A stretch of 64,000 nucleotides of DNA from Pelomonas caseinilytica (lineage in GTDB: Bacteria > Pseudomonadota > Gammaproteobacteria > Burkholderiales > Burkholderiaceae_C). The stretch covers positions 124,001 through 188,000 of the forward strand of contig NZ_JAJTWT010000001.1 in the NCBI RefSeq assembly GCF_021353235.1. Reading direction: 5' to 3'. The notes under the pieces are model-generated. The model was not told the DNA's origin and did not search any database. It saw only the letters and a program-made list of their open reading frames with translations. Below, piece by piece: positions 52,488 through 60,803 of the stretch. Made by a program: the position numbers and the translations under genes. Each line of letters begins with the position of its first letter. The first letter of the stretch is position 1.

Positions 52488-52559
52488 TGCGCAGGCCTGG
52501 CGAGGTCCGCAAAGCCAGCGCTTAGAATTCAAGCCGACGCGTCGCTTTCCGTGACGCGT

Positions 52560-52645
52560 TTTCGCTAGGGGTGTTGATGGCCCGCCGCCATCGACTGAGA
52601 CAGTCCCTTTGAACCTGATTGAGGTAATCCTCGCGCAGGGAAGCA
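52560..52645 (+). promoter_or_regulatory. TPP (thiamine pyrophosphate) riboswitch
   Basis: The conserved core elements appear in order: CTAGGGGTG, then CTGAGA (pyrimidine-sensing arm), CCCTTTGAACCTGAT (the invariant TPP-box segment), GGTAATCCTCGCGCAGGGAAG. A GGCCCC/GGGGCC stem (52657-52662 with 52681-52686) downstream could form the expression platform. A short hairpin (ACGCGTC/GACGCGT, 52537-52559) precedes it. It lies 85 nt upstream of a TonB receptor start. Confidence 0.93.
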
Positions 52646-52730
52646 GCCGGAACCGCGGCCCCCTTTCGTTTCAAGTCTCCGGGGCCTGGCGTCTTCAGTG
52701 TTTGCCGACCTGCCATCGCTTTGCATTCCG

Positions 52731-54866
52731 ATGGCACGACCTTCTCTTTCCCTCCTCGGCGCCGCCACGGCGCTGCTCGCCGTTCAGCTCGCCGCCGCCC
52801 AGACCCTCCCCCAGGTCAGCGTCAGCGGCAAGTCTGCCGAAGCCGCCCCGGGCCTGGCCGGCTTCTCCGACCCGCCCGCCCGCCTGCCCATGCAGGCCGT
52901 CAGCCTCTCGGCCGAGCGGCTGTCCGAAGCCGGCATCGAACAGCTCTCCGGCCTCACCAAGCTCGACGCCTCCGTCTCCGACAGCTACAACGCCGTCGGC
53001 TACTGGTCGCAGCTCAAGGTGCGCGGCTTCGACCTCGACAACCGCTACAACCTGCGCCGCGACGGCCTGCCCATCAACGGCGAGACGGCGCTCTCGCTGG
53101 CCAACAAGGCCGCCGTCGAGGTGCTCAAGGGCAGCTCCGGCATGCAAGCGGGCACCAGTGCCCCGGCGGGCCTCGTCAACCTCGTCGTCAAGCGCCCGCT
53201 GGCTGACGACGCCACGACGCTGACCCTGGGCGCCATCCAGGGCGGCACCGTGGAAGCCAGCGTCGACCACTCCCAGCGCTTCGGCGCCCAGCGCGAGTTC
53301 GGCCTGCGCGTGAACCTGGCCGCCGCCCACCTGGCCCCCCAACTGCACAGCAGCCGCGGCAGCGCCCACACCGCCGCCCTGGCCGGCGACTGGCGCGTCA
53401 GCCCCGACACCCTGGTCGAAGCCGAGGTCGAGTTCAGCCGCCAGAGCCAGCCCAGCCAGGACGGCTTCAGCCTGCTCGGCGACACCCTGCCCGACGCGAA
53501 GCGCATCGACCCCAGGCTCAACCTCAACAACCAGCCCTGGACCCTGCCCGTCGTCTTCGACAACACCCACGCCTCGCTGCGCCTGCAGCAAAAGCTCGCC
53601 GGCGACTGGCGCGCCCAGGCCCACCTCGGCATCCAGCGCCTGCGCACCGACGACCGCAACGCCTTCGGCTTCGGCCTGGACTGCAACGAGACCAGCACTT
53701 TCGAGGGCGTCTACTACTGCGACCGCTACGGCCCCGACGGCCGCTTCGACCTCTACGACTACCGCAGCGAGAACGAGCACCGCGACACCACGGCGCTGGA
53801 CCTGTCCGCCAGCGGCCCCGTGCAGCTCGCCGGCCTGCGCCACGACCTGACCGTGGGCGGCCTGGCCAGCCGCTTCAAGGCCCGCTTCCAGCGCCAGGCC
53901 TACAACTTCACCGGCGTGGACACCATCGACGGCAACGTCGTCACCGCCCCGCAGCCCGCCCTGACCGGCGAGAACACCAACCGCGACGAGCGCAGCCGCG
54001 AGCTCTACCTGCGCGACCGCGTGGCCCTGGGCGCCGACACCAGCGCCTGGCTGGGCCTGCGCCACACGCGCCTGCACCGCGAGAGCGTGCGCACCGACGG
54101 CAGCCGCGCGACCGACTACTCCCAGAGCGTGACCACGCCCTGGATGGCCCTGAGCCACGACATCGCGGCCGACTGGCTGGTCTACGCCAGCTGGGGTCAG
54201 GGCGTGGAGAGCGAGGTCACGCCCAACCGCCCGCGCTACGTCAACGCCGGCCAGGCCCTGCCTGCCCTCAAGAGCCGCCAGACCGAGATCGGCCTCAAGA
54301 CCGGCACCCAGCGCGTGGAAGGCTCGCTCACCGTCTTCGACATCCGCCGCCCGCTGTGGCGCGACATCGGCAGCTGCGACGTGGACCTGAGCTGCGAGCA
54401 CCGCACCGACGGCCATGCCCGCCACCGCGGCATCGAGGCCAGCGCCGACCTGAAGTGGAGCGGCGGCGGCCTCTTCGCCAGCGCCCAGCGCCTGCGCGCC
54501 CGCCGCGAGGGCAGCGCCGACGCCAGCCTGAACGGCCTGGTGCCGCCCAACGTGCCGCAGACCACCGTCAAGGCCCAGGTCCGGCACGACCTGCTGCCGG
54601 GCCTGCAAGCCCAGCTCGGCGTGCAATACGAAGGCCGCCGCTTCGCCACGCCCGACAACGGCATCGCCGTGCCCGCCTGGACCGTGGCCGACGCCGGCCT
54701 GCGCTACATGCAGACCACAGGCCAGCAGACCTGGATCTGGCGCGCCGCCGTGGACAACCTCACCAACCGCCGCGCCTGGCGCGAGGCGCCCTGGCAGTTC
54801 GAGCACAGCTACCTCTACCCCCTGGCGCCGAGAACTTTGCGCGCTTCCCTGGAGGTCCGCCTGTAA
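52731..54866 (+). CDS. TPP-regulated TonB-dependent receptor, probable thiamine/thiamine-precursor receptor
   Basis: A 711-residue siderophore-receptor-type TonB receptor. Signal peptide MARPSLSLLGAATALLAVQLAAAQ, then TLPQVSVSG (TonB-box region). The plug domain contains YNAVGYWSQLKVRGFDLDNRYNLRRDGLPINGE and GSSGMQAGTSAPAGLVNLVVKRP, and a 22-strand-type barrel ends LRASLEVRL. The riboswitch upstream shows control by intracellular TPP, so the ligand is probably thiamine or a precursor rather than iron. The start codon lacks a strong ribosome binding site, compatible with riboswitch control of translation. Transcription of the tRNA-Asn genes begins just after its stop. Confidence 0.9.
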   Translation: MARPSLSLLGAATALLAVQLAAAQTLPQVSVSGKSAEAAPGLAGFSDPPARLPMQAVSLSAERLSEAGIEQLSGLTKLDASVSDSYNAVGYWSQLKVRGFDLDNRYNLRRDGLPINGETALSLANKAAVEVLKGSSGMQAGTSAPAGLVNLVVKRPLADDATTLTLGAIQGGTVEASVDHSQRFGAQREFGLRVNLAAAHLAPQLHSSRGSAHTAALAGDWRVSPDTLVEAEVEFSRQSQPSQDGFSLLGDTLPDAKRIDPRLNLNNQPWTLPVVFDNTHASLRLQQKLAGDWRAQAHLGIQRLRTDDRNAFGFGLDCNETSTFEGVYYCDRYGPDGRFDLYDYRSENEHRDTTALDLSASGPVQLAGLRHDLTVGGLASRFKARFQRQAYNFTGVDTIDGNVVTAPQPALTGENTNRDERSRELYLRDRVALGADTSAWLGLRHTRLHRESVRTDGSRATDYSQSVTTPWMALSHDIAADWLVYASWGQGVESEVTPNRPRYVNAGQALPALKSRQTEIGLKTGTQRVEGSLTVFDIRRPLWRDIGSCDVDLSCEHRTDGHARHRGIEASADLKWSGGGLFASAQRLRARREGSADASLNGLVPPNVPQTTVKAQVRHDLLPGLQAQLGVQYEGRRFATPDNGIAVPAWTVADAGLRYMQTTGQQTWIWRAAVDNLTNRRAWREAPWQFEHSYLYPLAPRTLRASLEVRL

Positions 54867-54901: not shown

Positions 54902-54913
54902 CGCGGGCTCTGT

Positions 54914-54989
54914 TCCTCGATAGCTCAGTCGGTAGAGCGCCGGACTGTTAATCCGTAGGTCCCTGGTTCGAGCCCAGGTCGGGGAGCCA
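54914..54989 (+). tRNA. tRNA-Asn (GTT), copy 1
   Basis: A 76-nt cloverleaf with encoded CCA. Acceptor TCCTCGA pairs with TCGGGGA (one G-T pair). D arm AGCTCAGTCGGTAGAGC, anticodon loop CTGTTAA with anticodon GTT, T arm CTGGTTCGAGCCCAG. Confidence 0.98.
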
Positions 54990-55072
54990 AGAACTCCGAG
55001 CCGCCCGCGTCACGCGGGCGGTTCAGCAGAGAGCCCGCAGCAACCGCACTGCGGGCACCCATACCGAACAAT

Positions 55073-55148
55073 TCCTCGATAGCTCAGTCGGTAGAGCGCC
55101 GGACTGTTAATCCGTAGGTCCCTGGTTCGAGCCCAGGTCGGGGAGCCA
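55073..55148 (+). tRNA. tRNA-Asn (GTT), copy 2
   Basis: Identical to the first copy over all 76 nt. The 83-nt spacer carries CCGCCCGCGTCACGCGGGCGG and GCCCGCAG/CTGCGGGC hairpins that could direct processing. Confidence 0.98.
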
Positions 55149-55254: not shown

Positions 55255-56220
55255 TTATGCCCGCTTTGCGACTTGGTCCTTATATCCCAAATGTCCTCGA
55301 ACCACGGAAATAGATTCAGCCCTTATCTTTCCGGCAGCCAATAGGTGCTCATACGCGCGCAACCGATTTCTGTACCCTTTCGTTAGCCGCAACTGATCTC
55401 CATGAACAAGCAGCCCATGAACTTTCAATCGCTGAGGCCAAACGGCCAATTTAATCTTCTGATTGGACAATGCCCAAGGGCCAGAGGCAAAAATCCCTAA
55501 CACTTCTTCCTTCAGCGCGACTGGGAAATCATCTTGTCCTGAGAACACTATGTCGTCGGCATACCTGGTCAGCCGAGCACCGTACCTGTCAGCAATTGCC
55601 TTGAGCCGCTGGTCATAAGATGCAAAGCACATATTCGAAAGAATAGGACTCGAAGGCGCGCCTTGGGCCAATGCATTTTCAAAGCAGCAAAGCCGAGAAA
55701 TTAATACCGCACCCAATTCATGGTAGCCGATGTCAAGTAGCGCTCTTGCAACCACATCGATGGGCGTTGTGGGAAAGAAGTTCTGAATATCGACACCAAA
55801 CACCCAGGTAGCCCGACAGTGAATCCGCGCGGCATCTATGTGCGAACGCCCTTCAACGAAGCCGCATACATGCTCAGGCGGTAAGTAGGCTTTAGCCAAC
55901 TGAAACCCAATCCATTTCTGAACAATCTTCAGGGCGACCCGTGGAGCATCTATCCTCCGAACATCTTTTCCCTTGGGAATATAGAACGTCCGGTAGTGTC
56001 TGCCTGGCCTTGCCTCAAACGACCAGATCAACCCTTCATTTATCCCCAACATCGCCGCCAAGGCTGCCCGGGACGAAATAGGCGGAAGCCCTTTGCCTGA
56101 GAGCTGCAGCATCAACTCGCGCTCTGACTCAGACAGCGCGCGCTCAGTCGCCTTCAATAGCTCCGAAAGAGATGCGTATTGAAAAAACTGAGAATTAAGG
56201 AGAGGGTGCGGGAGCCTCAT
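55255..56220 (-). CDS. Retron-type reverse transcriptase
   Basis: A 321-residue RT with finger-palm motifs in the retron order: YRTFYIPKGKDVRRIDAPRVALKIVQKWI, VCGFVEGRSHIDAARIHC (variant of the retron NAxxH motif), WVFGVDIQNFFPTTP, LPQGAPSSP-like LAQGAPSSPILSNMCF, catalytic YADD at 220-223 in RYADDIVFSG, and KVHGLLV where retron RTs carry a VTG motif. No maturase, endonuclease or CRISPR-associated domain is attached, which argues against a group II intron or Cas1-RT. It would prime from the structured RNA just upstream and make msDNA. The start codon lies inside the right inverted repeat of that RNA. Confidence 0.88.
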   Translation of the reverse strand: MRLPHPLLNSQFFQYASLSELLKATERALSESERELMLQLSGKGLPPISSRAALAAMLGINEGLIWSFEARPGRHYRTFYIPKGKDVRRIDAPRVALKIVQKWIGFQLAKAYLPPEHVCGFVEGRSHIDAARIHCRATWVFGVDIQNFFPTTPIDVVARALLDIGYHELGAVLISRLCCFENALAQGAPSSPILSNMCFASYDQRLKAIADRYGARLTRYADDIVFSGQDDFPVALKEEVLGIFASGPWALSNQKIKLAVWPQRLKVHGLLVHGDQLRLTKGYRNRLRAYEHLLAAGKIRAESISVVRGHLGYKDQVAKRA

Positions 56221-56356
56221 TCAGCAAAGCTTAGCTTTCGTATTGCAGCCGGATAAACGACTGTGGCTTCGAAGGAGACGCGGGCGTTTATCCGGCTCCT
56301 TCTATGCAAGGTCTTGGCAAGCGGGCATGATTCATACCCTCGCCTGAGGCTCCCGC
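56208..56356 (-). ncRNA. Candidate retron msr-msd RNA
   Basis: Read on the minus strand, GCGGGAGCCTCA (a1, 56356-56345) and TGAGGCTCCCGC (a2, 56219-56208) are perfect 12-bp inverted repeats bounding about 125 nt. A G follows a1 directly (56344), the place of the branching guanosine. An msr-like hairpin GGCGAGGGTATG/CATGCCCGCTTGCC (56344-56316) comes next. The msd-like part is a long hairpin with a perfect 13-bp stem AGCCGGATAAACG/CGTTTATCCGGCT (56297-56247) and a 25-nt loop. Order, sizes and position before the RT match known retrons. Confidence 0.78.
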
Positions 56357-56365
56357 AAGACAAGC

Positions 56366-57094
56366 TTACCGGCCCTTTCTTGCCAACGCAAGTAGTCTTG
56401 CGATGTCTGGACTACCACGCCCCTTAATAGTTCCCAGCGCTCGTGTTGCAACCAGAGAGCAGGCGAACTTACCTTCCGCAATCCAAACAACTTTACCGGC
56501 CTTCCGCAAAGCATCCAGGCGACGTTTCATCCAGTCATCTGAAGGCACATCAAACCGACGACCAAGCATTCTCTTAACTTCGCCCTCTGTAGCAGGAGCT
56601 ATTTGGCGCAAAGTTTTAAGAATAACCAAGTCGGACGGTACATTTTCGTTGGTTGTGAGTGTGAAGCCACTTAGCGTGATAGAAAGATCAGCCAAATATA
56701 GCACGGCGCGCGTCTTAATTGCGCCTAACGCAGACTCATCGAGGCGCCTCTTGGCCTCCAGCCAAACATTCGCAGAGCGCTCGTTAAGTGACAAAAAGAC
56801 ATTTCTGACATCAGATCCAAAGGCATGCATAAGCGTCGCCCTCAGCCCTCCTTCCATATCAATTCCGTGAGGGTCAGATAGCAAAAACTCAACAGAGTAG
56901 CCCACATTACGCAACTCTTCTTTAATTTCCGAGAGCAGTCGATTGCTGGGCCTCTGTTTATTCTCGCCATCCCGTACCACTGCAATCCGCACGAATATTA
57001 CGCCTTGAGGGCCACTGTCCTTAACAATTGATCCAAGAATATCCAGCCCCCTACTCATAAGCAGAGAAAGAAGCTGCGAATAGTCACCAGACAT
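56366..57094 (-). CDS. Retron-associated protein of unknown function
   Basis: A 242-residue protein. The N-terminal half (IFVRIAVVRDGENKQRPSNRLLSEIKEELRNVGYSVEFLLSDPHGIDMEGGLRATLMHAFG) looks like an alpha/beta fold. The C-terminal 90 residues (SDLVILKTLRQIAPATEGEVKRMLGRRFDVPSDDWMKRRLDALRKAGKVVWIAEGKFAC) resemble a winged helix. It overlaps the upstream gene by 11 nt and ends 10 nt before the a1 repeat of the retron RNA. I recognise no family. Position suggests an effector or regulator of the retron. Base composition is unlike the host genes. Confidence 0.75.
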   Translation of the reverse strand: MSGDYSQLLSLLMSRGLDILGSIVKDSGPQGVIFVRIAVVRDGENKQRPSNRLLSEIKEELRNVGYSVEFLLSDPHGIDMEGGLRATLMHAFGSDVRNVFLSLNERSANVWLEAKRRLDESALGAIKTRAVLYLADLSITLSGFTLTTNENVPSDLVILKTLRQIAPATEGEVKRMLGRRFDVPSDDWMKRRLDALRKAGKVVWIAEGKFACSLVATRALGTIKGRGSPDIARLLALARKGR

Positions 57095-57581
57095 AAACTT
57101 GTCTCCAGACCCCGGAAATCACCTGCATAAAAACCCTCGCTCGGTAAGGCCAGCTACTCGCAGAGAGTACGGCAACCGAGTTCAGTTCGAAATCTGGCGC
57201 ACGGGCAAAATTTACAAGTACTTCCGGATAATAGTCGGCAGTAACGCGCACCTGCCGGCCTTCATCTAGCAGTTTCGCTAGATCCATAGCGGCCGATGCG
57301 GCACTTGCACACTGCGCAGCCAACTGATGGTCATCGGCTTTAAGAGCCTTAGCTCGCCCTTTCGTCAGTTCTTTTTTAACGGTTCCACGAAGGATTTCCG
57401 GAATCATTGCGTGCGGCATTTCCCCAGTCCACTCCGCCTTCATCTTTGATAGGCCGCTACGCACCTCCAAGTACGTGGCGTAGTAGAAACGATTGAAGGC
57501 CGTTCGACCGAAAAGGTCGGCTTCTGCTTGAGGAAGCAAGCGAACCGCCTCTTGCCTTAAATAGCTGCCCACCCGCTCCAT
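57084..57581 (-). CDS. HEPN-like small protein, first gene of the retron unit
   Basis: A 165-residue, mostly helical protein. ADLFGRTAFNRFYYATYLEVRSGLSKMKAEW resembles the first helices of HEPN-domain proteins, and a second helical pair covers LKADDHQLAAQCASAASAAMDLAKLLDEGRQVRVTADYYPE. The R-x4-6-H ribonuclease motif of active HEPN toxins is not seen, so catalytic activity is uncertain. It is co-transcribed with and overlaps the 242-residue gene. Confidence 0.7.
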   Translation of the reverse strand: MERVGSYLRQEAVRLLPQAEADLFGRTAFNRFYYATYLEVRSGLSKMKAEWTGEMPHAMIPEILRGTVKKELTKGRAKALKADDHQLAAQCASAASAAMDLAKLLDEGRQVRVTADYYPEVLVNFARAPDFELNSVAVLSASSWPYRARVFMQVISGVWRQVYVW

Positions 57582-57761
57582 ATTCGCTTAGGCGTGTTTC
57601 CGCTGCCTTTGATCGACCTGCTCCACTTGCTGCCACCCCTGCTACGCTGCCAGTCGAATTGCTTGGTCAACATAGTCAACGCGTCTTCTTAGCAGATCGC
57701 AAACGCTAGCAACAGCGCGAGTTCCCTCGGGCGTACCACGCAGCGTCGACAGATCACTGCT

Positions 57762-57808
57762 CGGACTGCATGCCGAATCTGTAGGTCTGTGGTTCGAGAC
57801 AGGTGGCA
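57762..57808 (+). other. Degenerate 3' half of tRNA-Asn, probable attachment-site remnant
   Basis: CGGACTG, then AATCTGTAGGTC, TGGTTCGAG, CAGGT and GGCACA follow the order and spacing of the tRNA-Asn 3' half (CGGACTGTTAATCCGTAGGTCCCTGG...). The 5' half (acceptor, D arm) is missing. This is the pattern left when an element integrates into a tRNA 3' end, marking the right edge of the island. Confidence 0.65.
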
Positions 57809-57814
57809 CATGTA

Positions 57815-58051
57815 TCAAGACACCAACATCCGCATCCGCCGCTCGACATCCTTGAGCATCTCCGACGGCGCGACGTCGAGCGCATCGCAAAGTTTGAAAA
57901 GCATCCGCACGCTGGGACTGTTGCGTCCCAGTTCGACCAGCGAGATGTAGTTGCGGTCGACGTCGGCCCGCAGTGCGAGGTCCGTCTGCGTCCATTTGCG
58001 CTTTGTACGCAGGCTGCGGAGTGCCTGTCCGAGTGCTTGATCCGGTTCCAC
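57815..58051 (-). CDS. Small XRE-family regulator
   Basis: A 78-residue helix-turn-helix protein: ALGQALRSLRTKRKWTQTDLALRADVDRNYISLVELGRNSPSVRMLFKLCDALDVAPSEMLKDVE. The GTG start is chosen because AAGG lies 7 nt upstream and homologues begin at this helix. An ATG 69 nt further upstream is possible but lies in the likely promoter. It begins just outside the retron island and diverges from the NYN gene. Confidence 0.82.
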   Translation of the reverse strand: MEPDQALGQALRSLRTKRKWTQTDLALRADVDRNYISLVELGRNSPSVRMLFKLCDALDVAPSEMLKDVERRMRMLVS

Positions 58052-58222
58052 GAGCTGGCCTTGTGAGGAACGGCAAGAGTCCCGTGACGGCCCCTGAAGT
58101 TTTCCGCATATATGCTGCAAAATGTGAGGGGAAGGCGCTCAGCCAGAGCCGCGCGGCGGCGCCCGACCAGCCCGCCCTCAGCGTCGCCAAGACCGCCCCT
58201 GCCCTGCCCTCTCGACGGGAAC

Positions 58223-59062
58223 ATGACCTTTCTTCTGCTGGACCGTCCAGACTTCCCTCGCGACAGTGGCGCTAACGCCCAGCGAGAAGCCACGCCCCTC
58301 ACTGATGCCGGCCCAGACGCCCGCGTCGCCGTCCTCGTCGACTGCGACAACACCTCGCCCGAGATCGTCGAACACGCCCTCAGCGTGGCGGCGCAGTTCG
58401 GCCGGGTCGTGCTGCGCCGGGGTTACGGCAACCACGCCACGCTGGCCAACCGGTGGCAGGAGGCCCTGGTGCGCCTGGCCTTCACGCCCTGCCTGCAGTA
58501 CCAGTACGCCGCCGGCAAGAACACCTCCGACATCGTCCTGGCCCTCGACGCGATGGAAGCCCTGTTCGACCGGCGCGCCGACACCTTCTGCCTCGTCACC
58601 AGCGACTCGGACTTCGCCCACCTCTGCCGCAAGCTGCGCGAGCGCGGCGCGACGGTGCACCTCGTCGGCGAGGCCAAGTCGCCGGACGCGCTGCGCAACG
58701 CCAGTGACCAGTTCTTCGAGTGGACTCCGGCCGACCCGCCGCCCGTGGCCGATGCCGCGCCATCCCAGGCCAAGCCCGCCGCCGTGCCCAAATCCAAGCC
58801 CAGGCAGCGCCCGAAGTCGGTGGTGAACGCCGTGCGCCTGCTGGCCGCCGATACCGCCGACGGGCGCGTTGCCGTCGCCGCGCTCGGCTCCTATCTGCGG
58901 CGCACCGACCCCGCGTTCTCGCCGCAGACGCATGGGCACTCCGGCCTGCTCAGCATGTTGAAGACCTACGACCTCCTCAGCCTGCGCCAGGAGGCCGGCG
59001 GGCACTGGACGGTGGCGCTGGCGGCACGCGCGGAAGGGGCCGAATCGCCCCAGCACGCCTGA
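58223..59062 (+). CDS. NYN-domain protein with C-terminal OST-HTH/LOTUS-like domain
   Basis: A 279-residue protein. The LabA-like NYN (PIN-fold) domain spans about residues 30-165: [19 protein letters not shown] with acidic residues of the nuclease pocket, [46 protein letters not shown] Pro/Lys linker (about 180-205) joins a C-terminal winged-helix region resembling OST-HTH ([47 protein letters not shown]). Such proteins are predicted RNases that bind RNA. The start is at MTFLLLD after GACGGGAAC. Confidence 0.88.
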
Positions 59063-59566: not shown

Positions 59567-59598
59567 GTTCATTTGACTAATATTATGGACAAATGAAC
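59567..59598 (+). promoter_or_regulatory. Inverted repeat operator at the start of the XRE/nucleotidyltransferase pair
   Basis: GTTCATTTG (59567-59575) and CAAATGAAC (59590-59598) are perfect 9-bp inverted repeats separated by an AT-rich TATTAT-containing spacer. The right half includes the start codon of the XRE gene. An operator in this place is typical of autoregulated toxin-antitoxin pairs. Confidence 0.7.
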
Positions 59599-60270
59599 AT
59601 GCCCGACGGTACCGTGGTCCTCGAACGCCAGTTGCTGCTGCAGCTCGGCGATCGGCTCAAACGTCTGCGCAAGGCACAGGGCCTCGGCACGGTAGAGATG
59701 GCCAAGCGGGCCGGCATCTCCCGCACCACGCTGAGTTCGGTCGAATCGGGCGATCCGGGGCCGGCCATCGGGACCTACCTGCGCGTGATGTCGGTGCTGG
59801 GCATCAGCGGTGAATTGGCCTTGTTGGCCGGCGACGCATTGCAGCCCGGGCCGCCTGGAACGGCGGCGGCAAGGTCGAAGCGCGCCCGCCCGGTCGTACA
59901 GGTCACCGTCTCAACCGACGACACCCGACATCAAGCTCAAGACCTTCAAAGCCTGGCACTGCACGAGGCGGCCATCCGGCTGGCTCGCTCCGACCCTGAG
60001 CTTCTCCTCCAGGCCCAGCACACGCTGGATCGCTGGTTGGCGTCGGGCAACTCGCGCTCGATGGGCTTGTGGCATGAGTGGCAGGAGATTCTTCGCGGCG
60101 CGAAGTGGCGCAAGGTGCTGGCGCGAACACGGCGGGCGCAGGAGCTTCGCCAGGCATCGCCACTGACGGCGGTGCTCCCTGCGCAGGTTCGTCAAGGCGT
60201 GCTGGACCAGGTCGCCAAGCTGCGAACGGGCGTCGTGCTGGGTGATGCCGAACCACAGGCACGGACATGA
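59593..60270 (+). CDS. XRE-family regulator, putative antitoxin partner
   Basis: A 225-residue protein. The N-terminal helix-turn-helix (LGDRLKRLRKAQGLGTVEMAKRAGISRTTLSSVESGDPGPAIGTYLRVMSVLGI) is followed by a linker and a helical C-terminal domain (SLALHEAAIRLARSDPELLLQAQHTLDRWLASGNSRSMGLWHEWQEILR) of unknown function. The start codon lies inside the operator, and there is an alternative ATG two codons later. The last 4 nt overlap the nucleotidyltransferase gene. The pair is organised like a type II or IV toxin-antitoxin module with the regulator first. Confidence 0.85.
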   Translation: MNMPDGTVVLERQLLLQLGDRLKRLRKAQGLGTVEMAKRAGISRTTLSSVESGDPGPAIGTYLRVMSVLGISGELALLAGDALQPGPPGTAAARSKRARPVVQVTVSTDDTRHQAQDLQSLALHEAAIRLARSDPELLLQAQHTLDRWLASGNSRSMGLWHEWQEILRGAKWRKVLARTRRAQELRQASPLTAVLPAQVRQGVLDQVAKLRTGVVLGDAEPQART

Positions 60271-60803
60271 CCCGCGACGAACTCGAACACATCATCCGCG
60301 CAAGCGCCGACGTGACGGACCAGTACGAGTTCATCATCGTCGGCAGCCAGTCGATCCTGGGCCCGATTCCGAATCCGCCCGAGGTTTTCACGATGTCGGC
60401 CGAAGCGGACATCTATCCGCTGCAGGCACCCGAGCTGGCCGACAGGATCGATGGCGCCATCGGTGAAGGCTCGCAATTTCACCTGACCTACGGCTACTAC
60501 GCCCAAGGCGTTGGTCCCGAAACCGCCGTACTGCCGCGGGGCTGGATCGACCGCGTCCACAGGGTGCAGAGCGCCGCGACCAACCAGCGCGTGGGCTACT
60601 GCCTCGATTTGCCTGACCTGTTCATGTCGAAGGCCGCGGCGGGGCGCGACAAGGACCGCGAGTTCTGCATGGCGATGCTCGCGCATCGCTACGTGAATCG
60701 TGGCGGCGATGCCGCTGGACGATGCCGCGCAACGTCGCTTGAAGGCGGCCATCCGCCGGTGGGCCAAAACCGTCGAGGGGCAAGACGACAACCTGCCGAA
60801 TGA
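60267..60803 (+). CDS. Nucleotidyltransferase-like protein (DUF6036-type), C-terminus probably frameshifted
   Basis: The first 145 residues are a minimal nucleotidyltransferase-like domain: YEFIIVGSQSILGPIPNPPE with the GS motif, SAEADIYPL with acidic residues, RVGYCLDLPDLFMSKAAAGRDKDREFCMAML. After HRYVNRGG the annotated frame turns into low-quality GC sequence, while the frame shifted by one reads AAMPLDDAAQRRLKAAIRRWAK and ends at 60806. That reads like the genuine family tail. A one- or two-base indel near 60700 is likely. It is the putative toxin partner of the preceding gene. Confidence 0.78.
   Translation: MTRDELEHIIRASADVTDQYEFIIVGSQSILGPIPNPPEVFTMSAEADIYPLQAPELADRIDGAIGEGSQFHLTYGYYAQGVGPETAVLPRGWIDRVHRVQSAATNQRVGYCLDLPDLFMSKAAAGRDKDREFCMAMLAHRYVNRGGDAAGRCRATSLEGGHPPVGQNRRGARRQPAE

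Follow-up and report, generated by a model that had tools for sequence, protein, structure and literature searches.

A type IX retron locus of Pelomonas caseinilytica with the a2 arm of its msr-msd RNA overlapping the start of the reverse transcriptase gene

Results

Organization of the retron locus

The window analyzed here, a 64,000-nucleotide stretch of Pelomonas caseinilytica DNA, contains a retron locus made up of three genes and an RNA on the minus strand at positions 55255 to 57581. The genes, all on that strand, encode a HEPN effector of 165 aa (57084 to 57581), a winged-helix (WH/HTH) protein of 242 aa (56366 to 57094), and a retron reverse transcriptase (RT) of 321 aa with a YADD motif (55255 to 56220); the HEPN and WH genes are adjacent and overlap. 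Their top PADLOC calls were HEPN_IX (2.7e-48), HTH_IX (2.5e-62), and RT_IX (6.1e-127), respectively, the second match of the RT being RT_III-A at 7.5e-61. The same proteins matched chains of PDB 36ht (36ht_I at 5.3e-13, 36ht_B at 2.3e-11, and 36ht_A at 2.6e-61), which is the cryo-EM structure of retron-Kva2, a type IX retron of Klebsiella variicola, according to PMC13405049.

The locus thus contains an RT of the RT_IX subfamily, HEPN and WH genes alongside it, the His and Arg of the HEPN active site, and, between the WH and RT genes, an msr-msd RNA with inverted repeats. From these sequence features, we assign it to type IX, with the layout HEPN - WH - msr/msd - RT. Searching the whole window against Rfam at the gathering score returned no retron family, the matches being two tRNAs and a TPP riboswitch located elsewhere, and a search of positions 56100 to 56450 with E values up to 1 also returned no retron family, with one subthreshold, non-retron chance match. 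To our knowledge, few retron types are covered by Rfam, and for that reason the miss says little against a retron.

Relatives of the locus

A scan of a genome collection with a four-sequence RT alignment yielded 61 loci, and further loci came from whole-genome searches, plasmids, and one viral contig. We dropped from the 61 those 18 whose RTs had ≤35% identity (L047, L049 to L052, L054, and L056 to L067), L046, for which the best PADLOC profile was RT_II-A, and six with the 5' part of the RT missing or absent from the data (L025, L041, L042, L044, L048, and L055); of these six, five were inspected and L042 was scanned by motif. The remaining 36, together with the window, L002, L004, L006, L068, and L101, made 42 loci, which became 39 distinct type IX loci on removal of L013, L023, and L053 as copies with an identical noncoding RNA (ncRNA) region. 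Eight of the 39 RTs were typed with PADLOC, all with RT_IX as the best profile, and the other 31 were placed by tree and neighbors.

In a tree of the 39 type IX and three type III-A RTs, the window fell in an 18-member clade (clade A) with a support of 99/100. The other 21 loci are labeled B, a remainder that is not necessarily one clade. L012 belongs to clade A but has a2 at +8 to +19 and is excluded from the 17-row counts below; L101 stands outside the counts of in-frame stops, wobble pairs, next starts and 5-base Shine-Dalgarno matches, ribosomes on the WH stop, HEPN residues, and CTTC[GA].

The WH family is rare: with the window's own genome left out, HTH_IX had a match in a single genome out of 299 from the order and in two out of 397 sampled from the phylum, one of these two being weak (E value of 1.8e-5). 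A search of viral contigs with the WH alignment gave 38 pattern matches with no relatives among them, and the WH protein had no match in phage records. Three of the type IX RT remnants without a 5' part have, by eye, a tRNA gene (L041), an integrase-like open reading frame (ORF) (L044), or a transposase-like ORF (L055) in front of them, which suggests that mobile elements sometimes break retrons of this kind. Outside the window, the same genome (G000) has a second retron-like RT match on contig C37 (327286 to 328158), inside a 769-aa open frame.

Structure of the msr-msd RNA

On the minus strand, the a1 sequence GCGGGAGCCTCA (56356 to 56345) is perfectly complementary to the a2 sequence TGAGGCTCCCGC (56219 to 56208). 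These are the perfect 12-bp inverted repeats that a first-pass annotation had reported at the ends of 56208 to 56356, and they can be read directly from the DNA; a thirteenth pair, T-A at 56357/56207, is present in the MFE fold too and brings each arm to 13 nt (a1, 56345 to 56357; a2, 56207 to 56219). The a1 arm starts 8 nt past the WH stop codon, and a2 covers the last two bases (UG) of RT codon 1 and extends into codon 5. Directly after a1 stands a G (56344, minus strand), as annotated, which known retrons suggest as the candidate branch G; it is invariant in 17/17 rows of the clade A alignment (A5), with the caveat that the base counted as pair 12 in L002, L008, L011, and L024 may be the branch-G homologue.

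Two further elements of the annotation, the bulged 12-bp msr hairpin (56316 to 56344) and the 13-bp msd stem (56247 to 56297; strands 56297 to 56285 and 56259 to 56247), were recovered both in the sequence and in the MFE fold. The 25-nt loop of the msd stem contains CUUCG, which is CGAAG in the DNA copy, and a small hairpin, AAAGC/GCUUU (56226 to 56238, minus strand), lies just upstream of the RT start. The MFE fold has an energy of -75.2 kcal/mol (z = -3.42), which 1 of 200 shuffles equaled. The a1/a2 pairing is the best long-range helix near the window RT start and was equaled in 0 of 60 shuffles.

The RT ORF starts with the ATG at 56220 to 56218. The annotation had this codon inside a2, which holds for its U and G; the A lies outside the helix. 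Since an in-frame TGA abuts the ATG on its 5' side, the window RT cannot start further upstream in that frame.

Covariation

Covariation was assessed as pair counts on alignments. When a1 and a2 were read without gaps from fixed points, with G-U counted as a pair, all 204 cells (12 pairs in 17 distinct clade A sequences, the window included) were paired. Compensatory changes, which the annotation had proposed to look for in homologues, are present: both sides changed at 6 of the 12 a1/a2 pairs (2, 5, 6, 7, 8, and 9), each in at least one sequence, and at 10 of 13 pairs of the msd stem, the most of all helices, with 90.0% of the stem's cells paired. The msr hairpin (helices 2 and 3, 10 pairs) and the small hairpin (helix 5, 4 pairs) had 100% of cells paired, with 4/10 and 2/4 pairs doubly changed, the latter in one sequence each.

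A MAFFT alignment, which misplaces the a1/a2 arms in at least two rows, still had 96.2% of a1/a2 cells (11 pairs) paired. Across the 38-pair structure on this alignment, 95.5% of cells were paired versus 81.5% after shuffling, 20 pairs versus 12.3 were doubly changed, 94 cells versus 25.8 were doubly changed, and the covariation score was 0.441 versus 0.167; for each measure, 0 of 500 shuffles were as high. The number of further pair types, one of the five measures, was weakly raised (51 versus 46.1; 30 of 500 shuffles as high). Sliding the pairing partner lowered the paired cells to 37 to 46%.

Exchanging a1 arms among loci gave 0 of 5,000 permutations that matched the true total fit, in clade A and B alike. 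A locus's own a1 arm was strictly the best in 3/18 loci of clade A and 10/21 of B; because the arms of clade A are alike, swapping one of them within the clade often gave an equal fit. Shared descent alone would find the permutation result hard to explain, and we conclude from the alignments that the msr-msd RNA is under selection. Together with the HEPN_IX, HTH_IX, and RT_IX neighbors, the covariation of a1/a2 and the msd stem in homologues upholds the retron identity that the annotation had given this RNA.

Position of a2 over the first RT codons

For each RT start, positions -80 to +90 were searched for the best helix that has its other arm 90 to 260 nt upstream. In 37 of the 39 type IX loci, the helix so found has an a2 that overlaps RT codons 1 to 9, and in none of the 37 did more than 3 of 60 shuffles do as well. 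The exceptions are L004, where a perfect 12-bp a1/a2 helix at +1 scores 32 and the top helix 32.5, and L021, where a2 (8 bp at +12) is not the top helix. Within clade A, a2 begins at +1, the U of AUG, in 17/18 loci (L012, at +8, is the other), while the spacing between a1 and a2 varies from 121 to 144 nt. The overlap of a2 with the start codon that was first noticed in the window is therefore real and conserved. In the 21 B loci, a2 begins at +2 to +12, mostly over Pro-Pro-Leu codons. In L032 and L033, its first base is the final base of the start codon; in the other 19, the entire start codon lies 5' of a2, and direct masking of the AUG is thus characteristic of clade A.

The start itself is secure in most of clade A, where an in-frame stop abuts the ATG on the 5' side in 14/18 loci. 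The next in-frame RT start codon is at least 17 codons downstream in 29/37 loci, at a position that is not shared.

We tabulated the third bases of the overlapped codons against a1 in 21 rows outside clade A (L046 included; 20 without it), using the best-found helix register of each locus, which biases the table toward pairing and for which the arm-exchange permutation serves as the control. The first Pro codon had C-G in 10, U-A in 9, U-G in 1, and no pair in 1; the second Pro codon had U-A in 10, C-G in 4, A-U in 2, U-G in 2, and no pair in 3; and the Leu codon had G-C in 12, A-U in 4, U-A in 2, G-U in 1, and no pair in 2. On these alignments, protein constraint alone cannot explain a noncoding a1 that tracks synonymous changes in a2. 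The conserved overlap and the wobble covariation together indicate that a2 is dual-coding and that the overlap is conserved beyond the window's genome.

Modeled accessibility of the RT start

In a folding model, unpairedness from -3 to +15 was 0.31 at the RT starts of the 18 clade A loci and 0.30 at those of the 21 B loci, compared with 0.41 at 32 HEPN starts from the same set of loci. Blocking a1 raised the RT values to 0.54 in clade A (a rise of >0.1 in 16/18) and 0.46 in B (12/21). For the start codon alone, the values were 0.45 (A) and 0.60 (B) at RT starts versus 0.37 at HEPN starts. The modeled masking of the RT start by a1/a2 pairing is therefore moderate, and the start codon itself is predicted to be freer than that of HEPN. 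That folding hides the start codon enough to matter and could couple RT translation to RNA processing, as the first-pass annotation suggested, is conjectural.

Shine-Dalgarno complementarity averaged -1.28 kcal/mol at RT starts (6/39 at -4 or lower) and -4.05 kcal/mol at HEPN starts, which were chosen by motif (15/32 at -4 or lower); a match of at least five bases occurred at 1/37 RT starts. We also modeled a ribosome on the WH stop in 17 clade A and 19 B loci (L012, L014, and L101 left out). Unpairedness from -3 to +12 changed from 0.24 to 0.39 in clade A, with a rise of >0.1 in 14/17, and from 0.33 to 0.35 in B, with such a rise in 1/19.

Genes around the retron

Just past the RT, at 54913 to 55148, are two identical tRNA-Asn (GTT) genes, a 77-nt exact repeat 159 bases apart. 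As for tRNA-Asn as an integration site, the tRNA was absent in the loci of four relatives that share the gene upstream of the retron. A TPP riboswitch (52557 to 52658, plus strand; 58.6 bits) lies directly 5' of an ORF (52698 to 54866) that looks by eye like a TonB-dependent receptor, an arrangement suggestive of thiamin-controlled uptake. On the other side, a small HTH_3 regulator gene (57818 to 58120) separates the retron from the following gene; strong matches to 57600 to 59060 in four genomes begin at about 58314, which implies that the HTH_3 gene is missing there too. Also near the retron, an HTH protein (59593 to 60270) is followed by a DUF6036 nucleotidyltransferase-like protein (60267 to 60803), a pair (59593 to 60803) that we read as toxin-antitoxin-like.

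Discussion

Proposed working of the locus

We propose that the locus would be transcribed in the order HEPN-WH-ncRNA-RT and that the RNA from the WH stop to the fifth RT codon would fold with a1/a2 closing it. If known retrons are a guide, the RT would prime on the G after a1 and copy the msd stem into msDNA; if Kva2 is, the WH protein would read the msDNA loop, and the complex would hold the HEPN RNase in an inactive state until disturbed by a phage protein. The a2 arm, being also the start of the RT gene, is under two selections, for pairing with a1 and for coding the RT N terminus. Leaving any regulatory step aside, we hold it very probable that this is a type IX retron RNA closed by a1/a2, with a2 doubling as the start of the RT gene, and that it works as Kva2 does.

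The regulatory step is more speculative. RT synthesis may not readily begin on an RNA with a paired a2, and a ribosome that does begin on the RT would open a1/a2; each transcript could then act as template or as RT message but not as both, which would limit the RT and tie it to the supply of ncRNA. The modeling permits this either/or reading without establishing it, and we put a measurable regulatory role at somewhat less than an even chance. The broader proposition, that a2 acts in type IX retrons, and in some of other types, as a switch between template and RT message, never both, that sets the RT:ncRNA ratio, strikes us as a little more doubtful still.

The most serious competitor, to which we give an even chance, disputes only the regulatory step: the retron would be the same, with the overlap a passive result of compaction and RT translation unaffected by the pairing. 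The locus is compact in just this way. In 38/39 loci, the start of a1 lies close to the end of the WH stop codon, at most 3 nt ahead of it or 12 nt past it (the exception, L014, has an upstream ORF of just 123 aa), and in the window HEPN overlaps WH; the varied a2 offset outside clade A (+2 to +12) and the moderate modeled masking also agree with compaction. Compaction accounts less readily for the +1 phase that 17/18 clade A loci keep despite the variable arm spacing, or for RT starts with little Shine-Dalgarno complementarity. The latter would fit translational coupling, in which a ribosome finishing WH opens a1 and frees a2, keeping the synthesis of WH and RT in proportion. So would the position of a1 in clade A, 7 to 10 nt past the WH stop in 16/17 loci (3 nt in L002), and the unmasking modeled in 14/17 of them. 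However, placing a ribosome on the WH stop is predicted to do little in clade A and almost nothing elsewhere. We set this route aside as weak in A and nearly absent in B, and consider coupling improbable.

A reading that dispenses with the retron RNA altogether would make the inverted repeat a transcription attenuator or operator, since GC-rich palindromes are common at gene starts for such elements. It would leave to chance the covarying msr hairpin, the 13-bp msd stem, the invariant G after a1, and loop motifs that fit the msDNA contacts described for Kva2, all of them upstream of a retron RT. We find it barely credible.

The retron RNA with a dual-coding a2 offers a clear-cut example of an RNA helix kept through synonymous changes within a coding sequence, and the loci add a set of type IX msr-msd RNAs whose structure is backed by covariation. 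If the switch is true, a2 would set the RT:ncRNA ratio needed by a complex that restrains a toxic RNase. This would provide a rule, open to testing, by which retrons might keep template RNA and reverse transcriptase in balance, and retron constructs with a recoded RT start, or with the RT apart from the ncRNA, would lose the pairing or the control.

Comparison with known retrons

The retron is of a known type, and the conserved overlap is a feature for which our search found no description. The a2/RT-start overlap was undescribed in the titles and abstract openings of the literature search, which did not extend to the 2020 classification and the 2024 census, where an earlier description is possible. 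Word searches for "overlap" and "start codon" found them absent or used in other senses in PMC9165427, PMC12405507, and PMC11754653, and both absent in PMC13405049.

A control scan covered 51 loci outside the type IX set, including two type IX remnants. Twenty-four lacked a motif-usable RT; 18 of the 27 scanned had a helix at ≤1 of 40 shuffles. Counted from the first possible start codon, a2 lay within +1 to +24 in eight, upstream in seven, and further in for three, where the true start is unsure. PADLOC typed six of the eight near-start loci as III-A and L071 as XI, with L093 untyped; because the profile match of L071 begins at residue 25, translation of this RT may in truth begin at a later codon. 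The sole typed locus with an upstream a2 is L076 (I-C). Judging from these placements, the position of a2 at the RT start is not special to type IX. The type III-A loci (L049, L054, L060, L094, L097, and L098) resemble type IX in having a2 in RT codons 3 to 9, from the first possible start, but differ from the window in RT subfamily and in having 179 to 220 nt between the arms. Ec86 (Eco1) follows the same a1/a2 and branch-G logic as that seen here, and its a2 stops a few bases short of the RT start. Its RT (PDB 7v9u and 8qbk) is related to the window RT (4.3e-27).

The closest parallel is retron-Kva2, which shares the operon of HEPN, WH, ncRNA, and RT and has homologues of all three proteins. 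In the Kva2 system of PMC13405049, for which phage defense is demonstrated, the complex keeps a HEPN dimer sequestered, the msDNA loop is read by the WH protein, and phage T5 D5 triggers tRNA cleavage. Aligned with the residues given there, H57 and R112 of the window HEPN correspond to the Kva2 active site, H64 and R122, and are kept in 32/32 aligned HEPN sequences, the window included (a HEPN ORF was present in 32 of 38 loci tried). D187, D194, R197, and K198 of the window WH correspond to the Kva2 loop readers D190, D197, R200, and K201; the fifth, N193, is K190 in the window. The DNA loop of the window, with its GAAG and TTCT stretch, fits the Kva2 contacts in that source under a putative mapping. 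Within 110 nt upstream of the RT start, and irrespective of placement in a loop, CTTC[GA] (GAAG in the DNA copy) occurs in 37/38 loci and AGAAG in 36/38. Given that the active site and four of the five loop-reading residues are kept, the likely function of the window locus, by analogy, is the same anti-phage defense as that of Kva2. The N terminus of the Kva2 RT, KTPLPLLFSY, resembles those of the B loci, in which a2 lies in the PPLL codons, whereas a2 of clade A, the window among them, covers the AUG.
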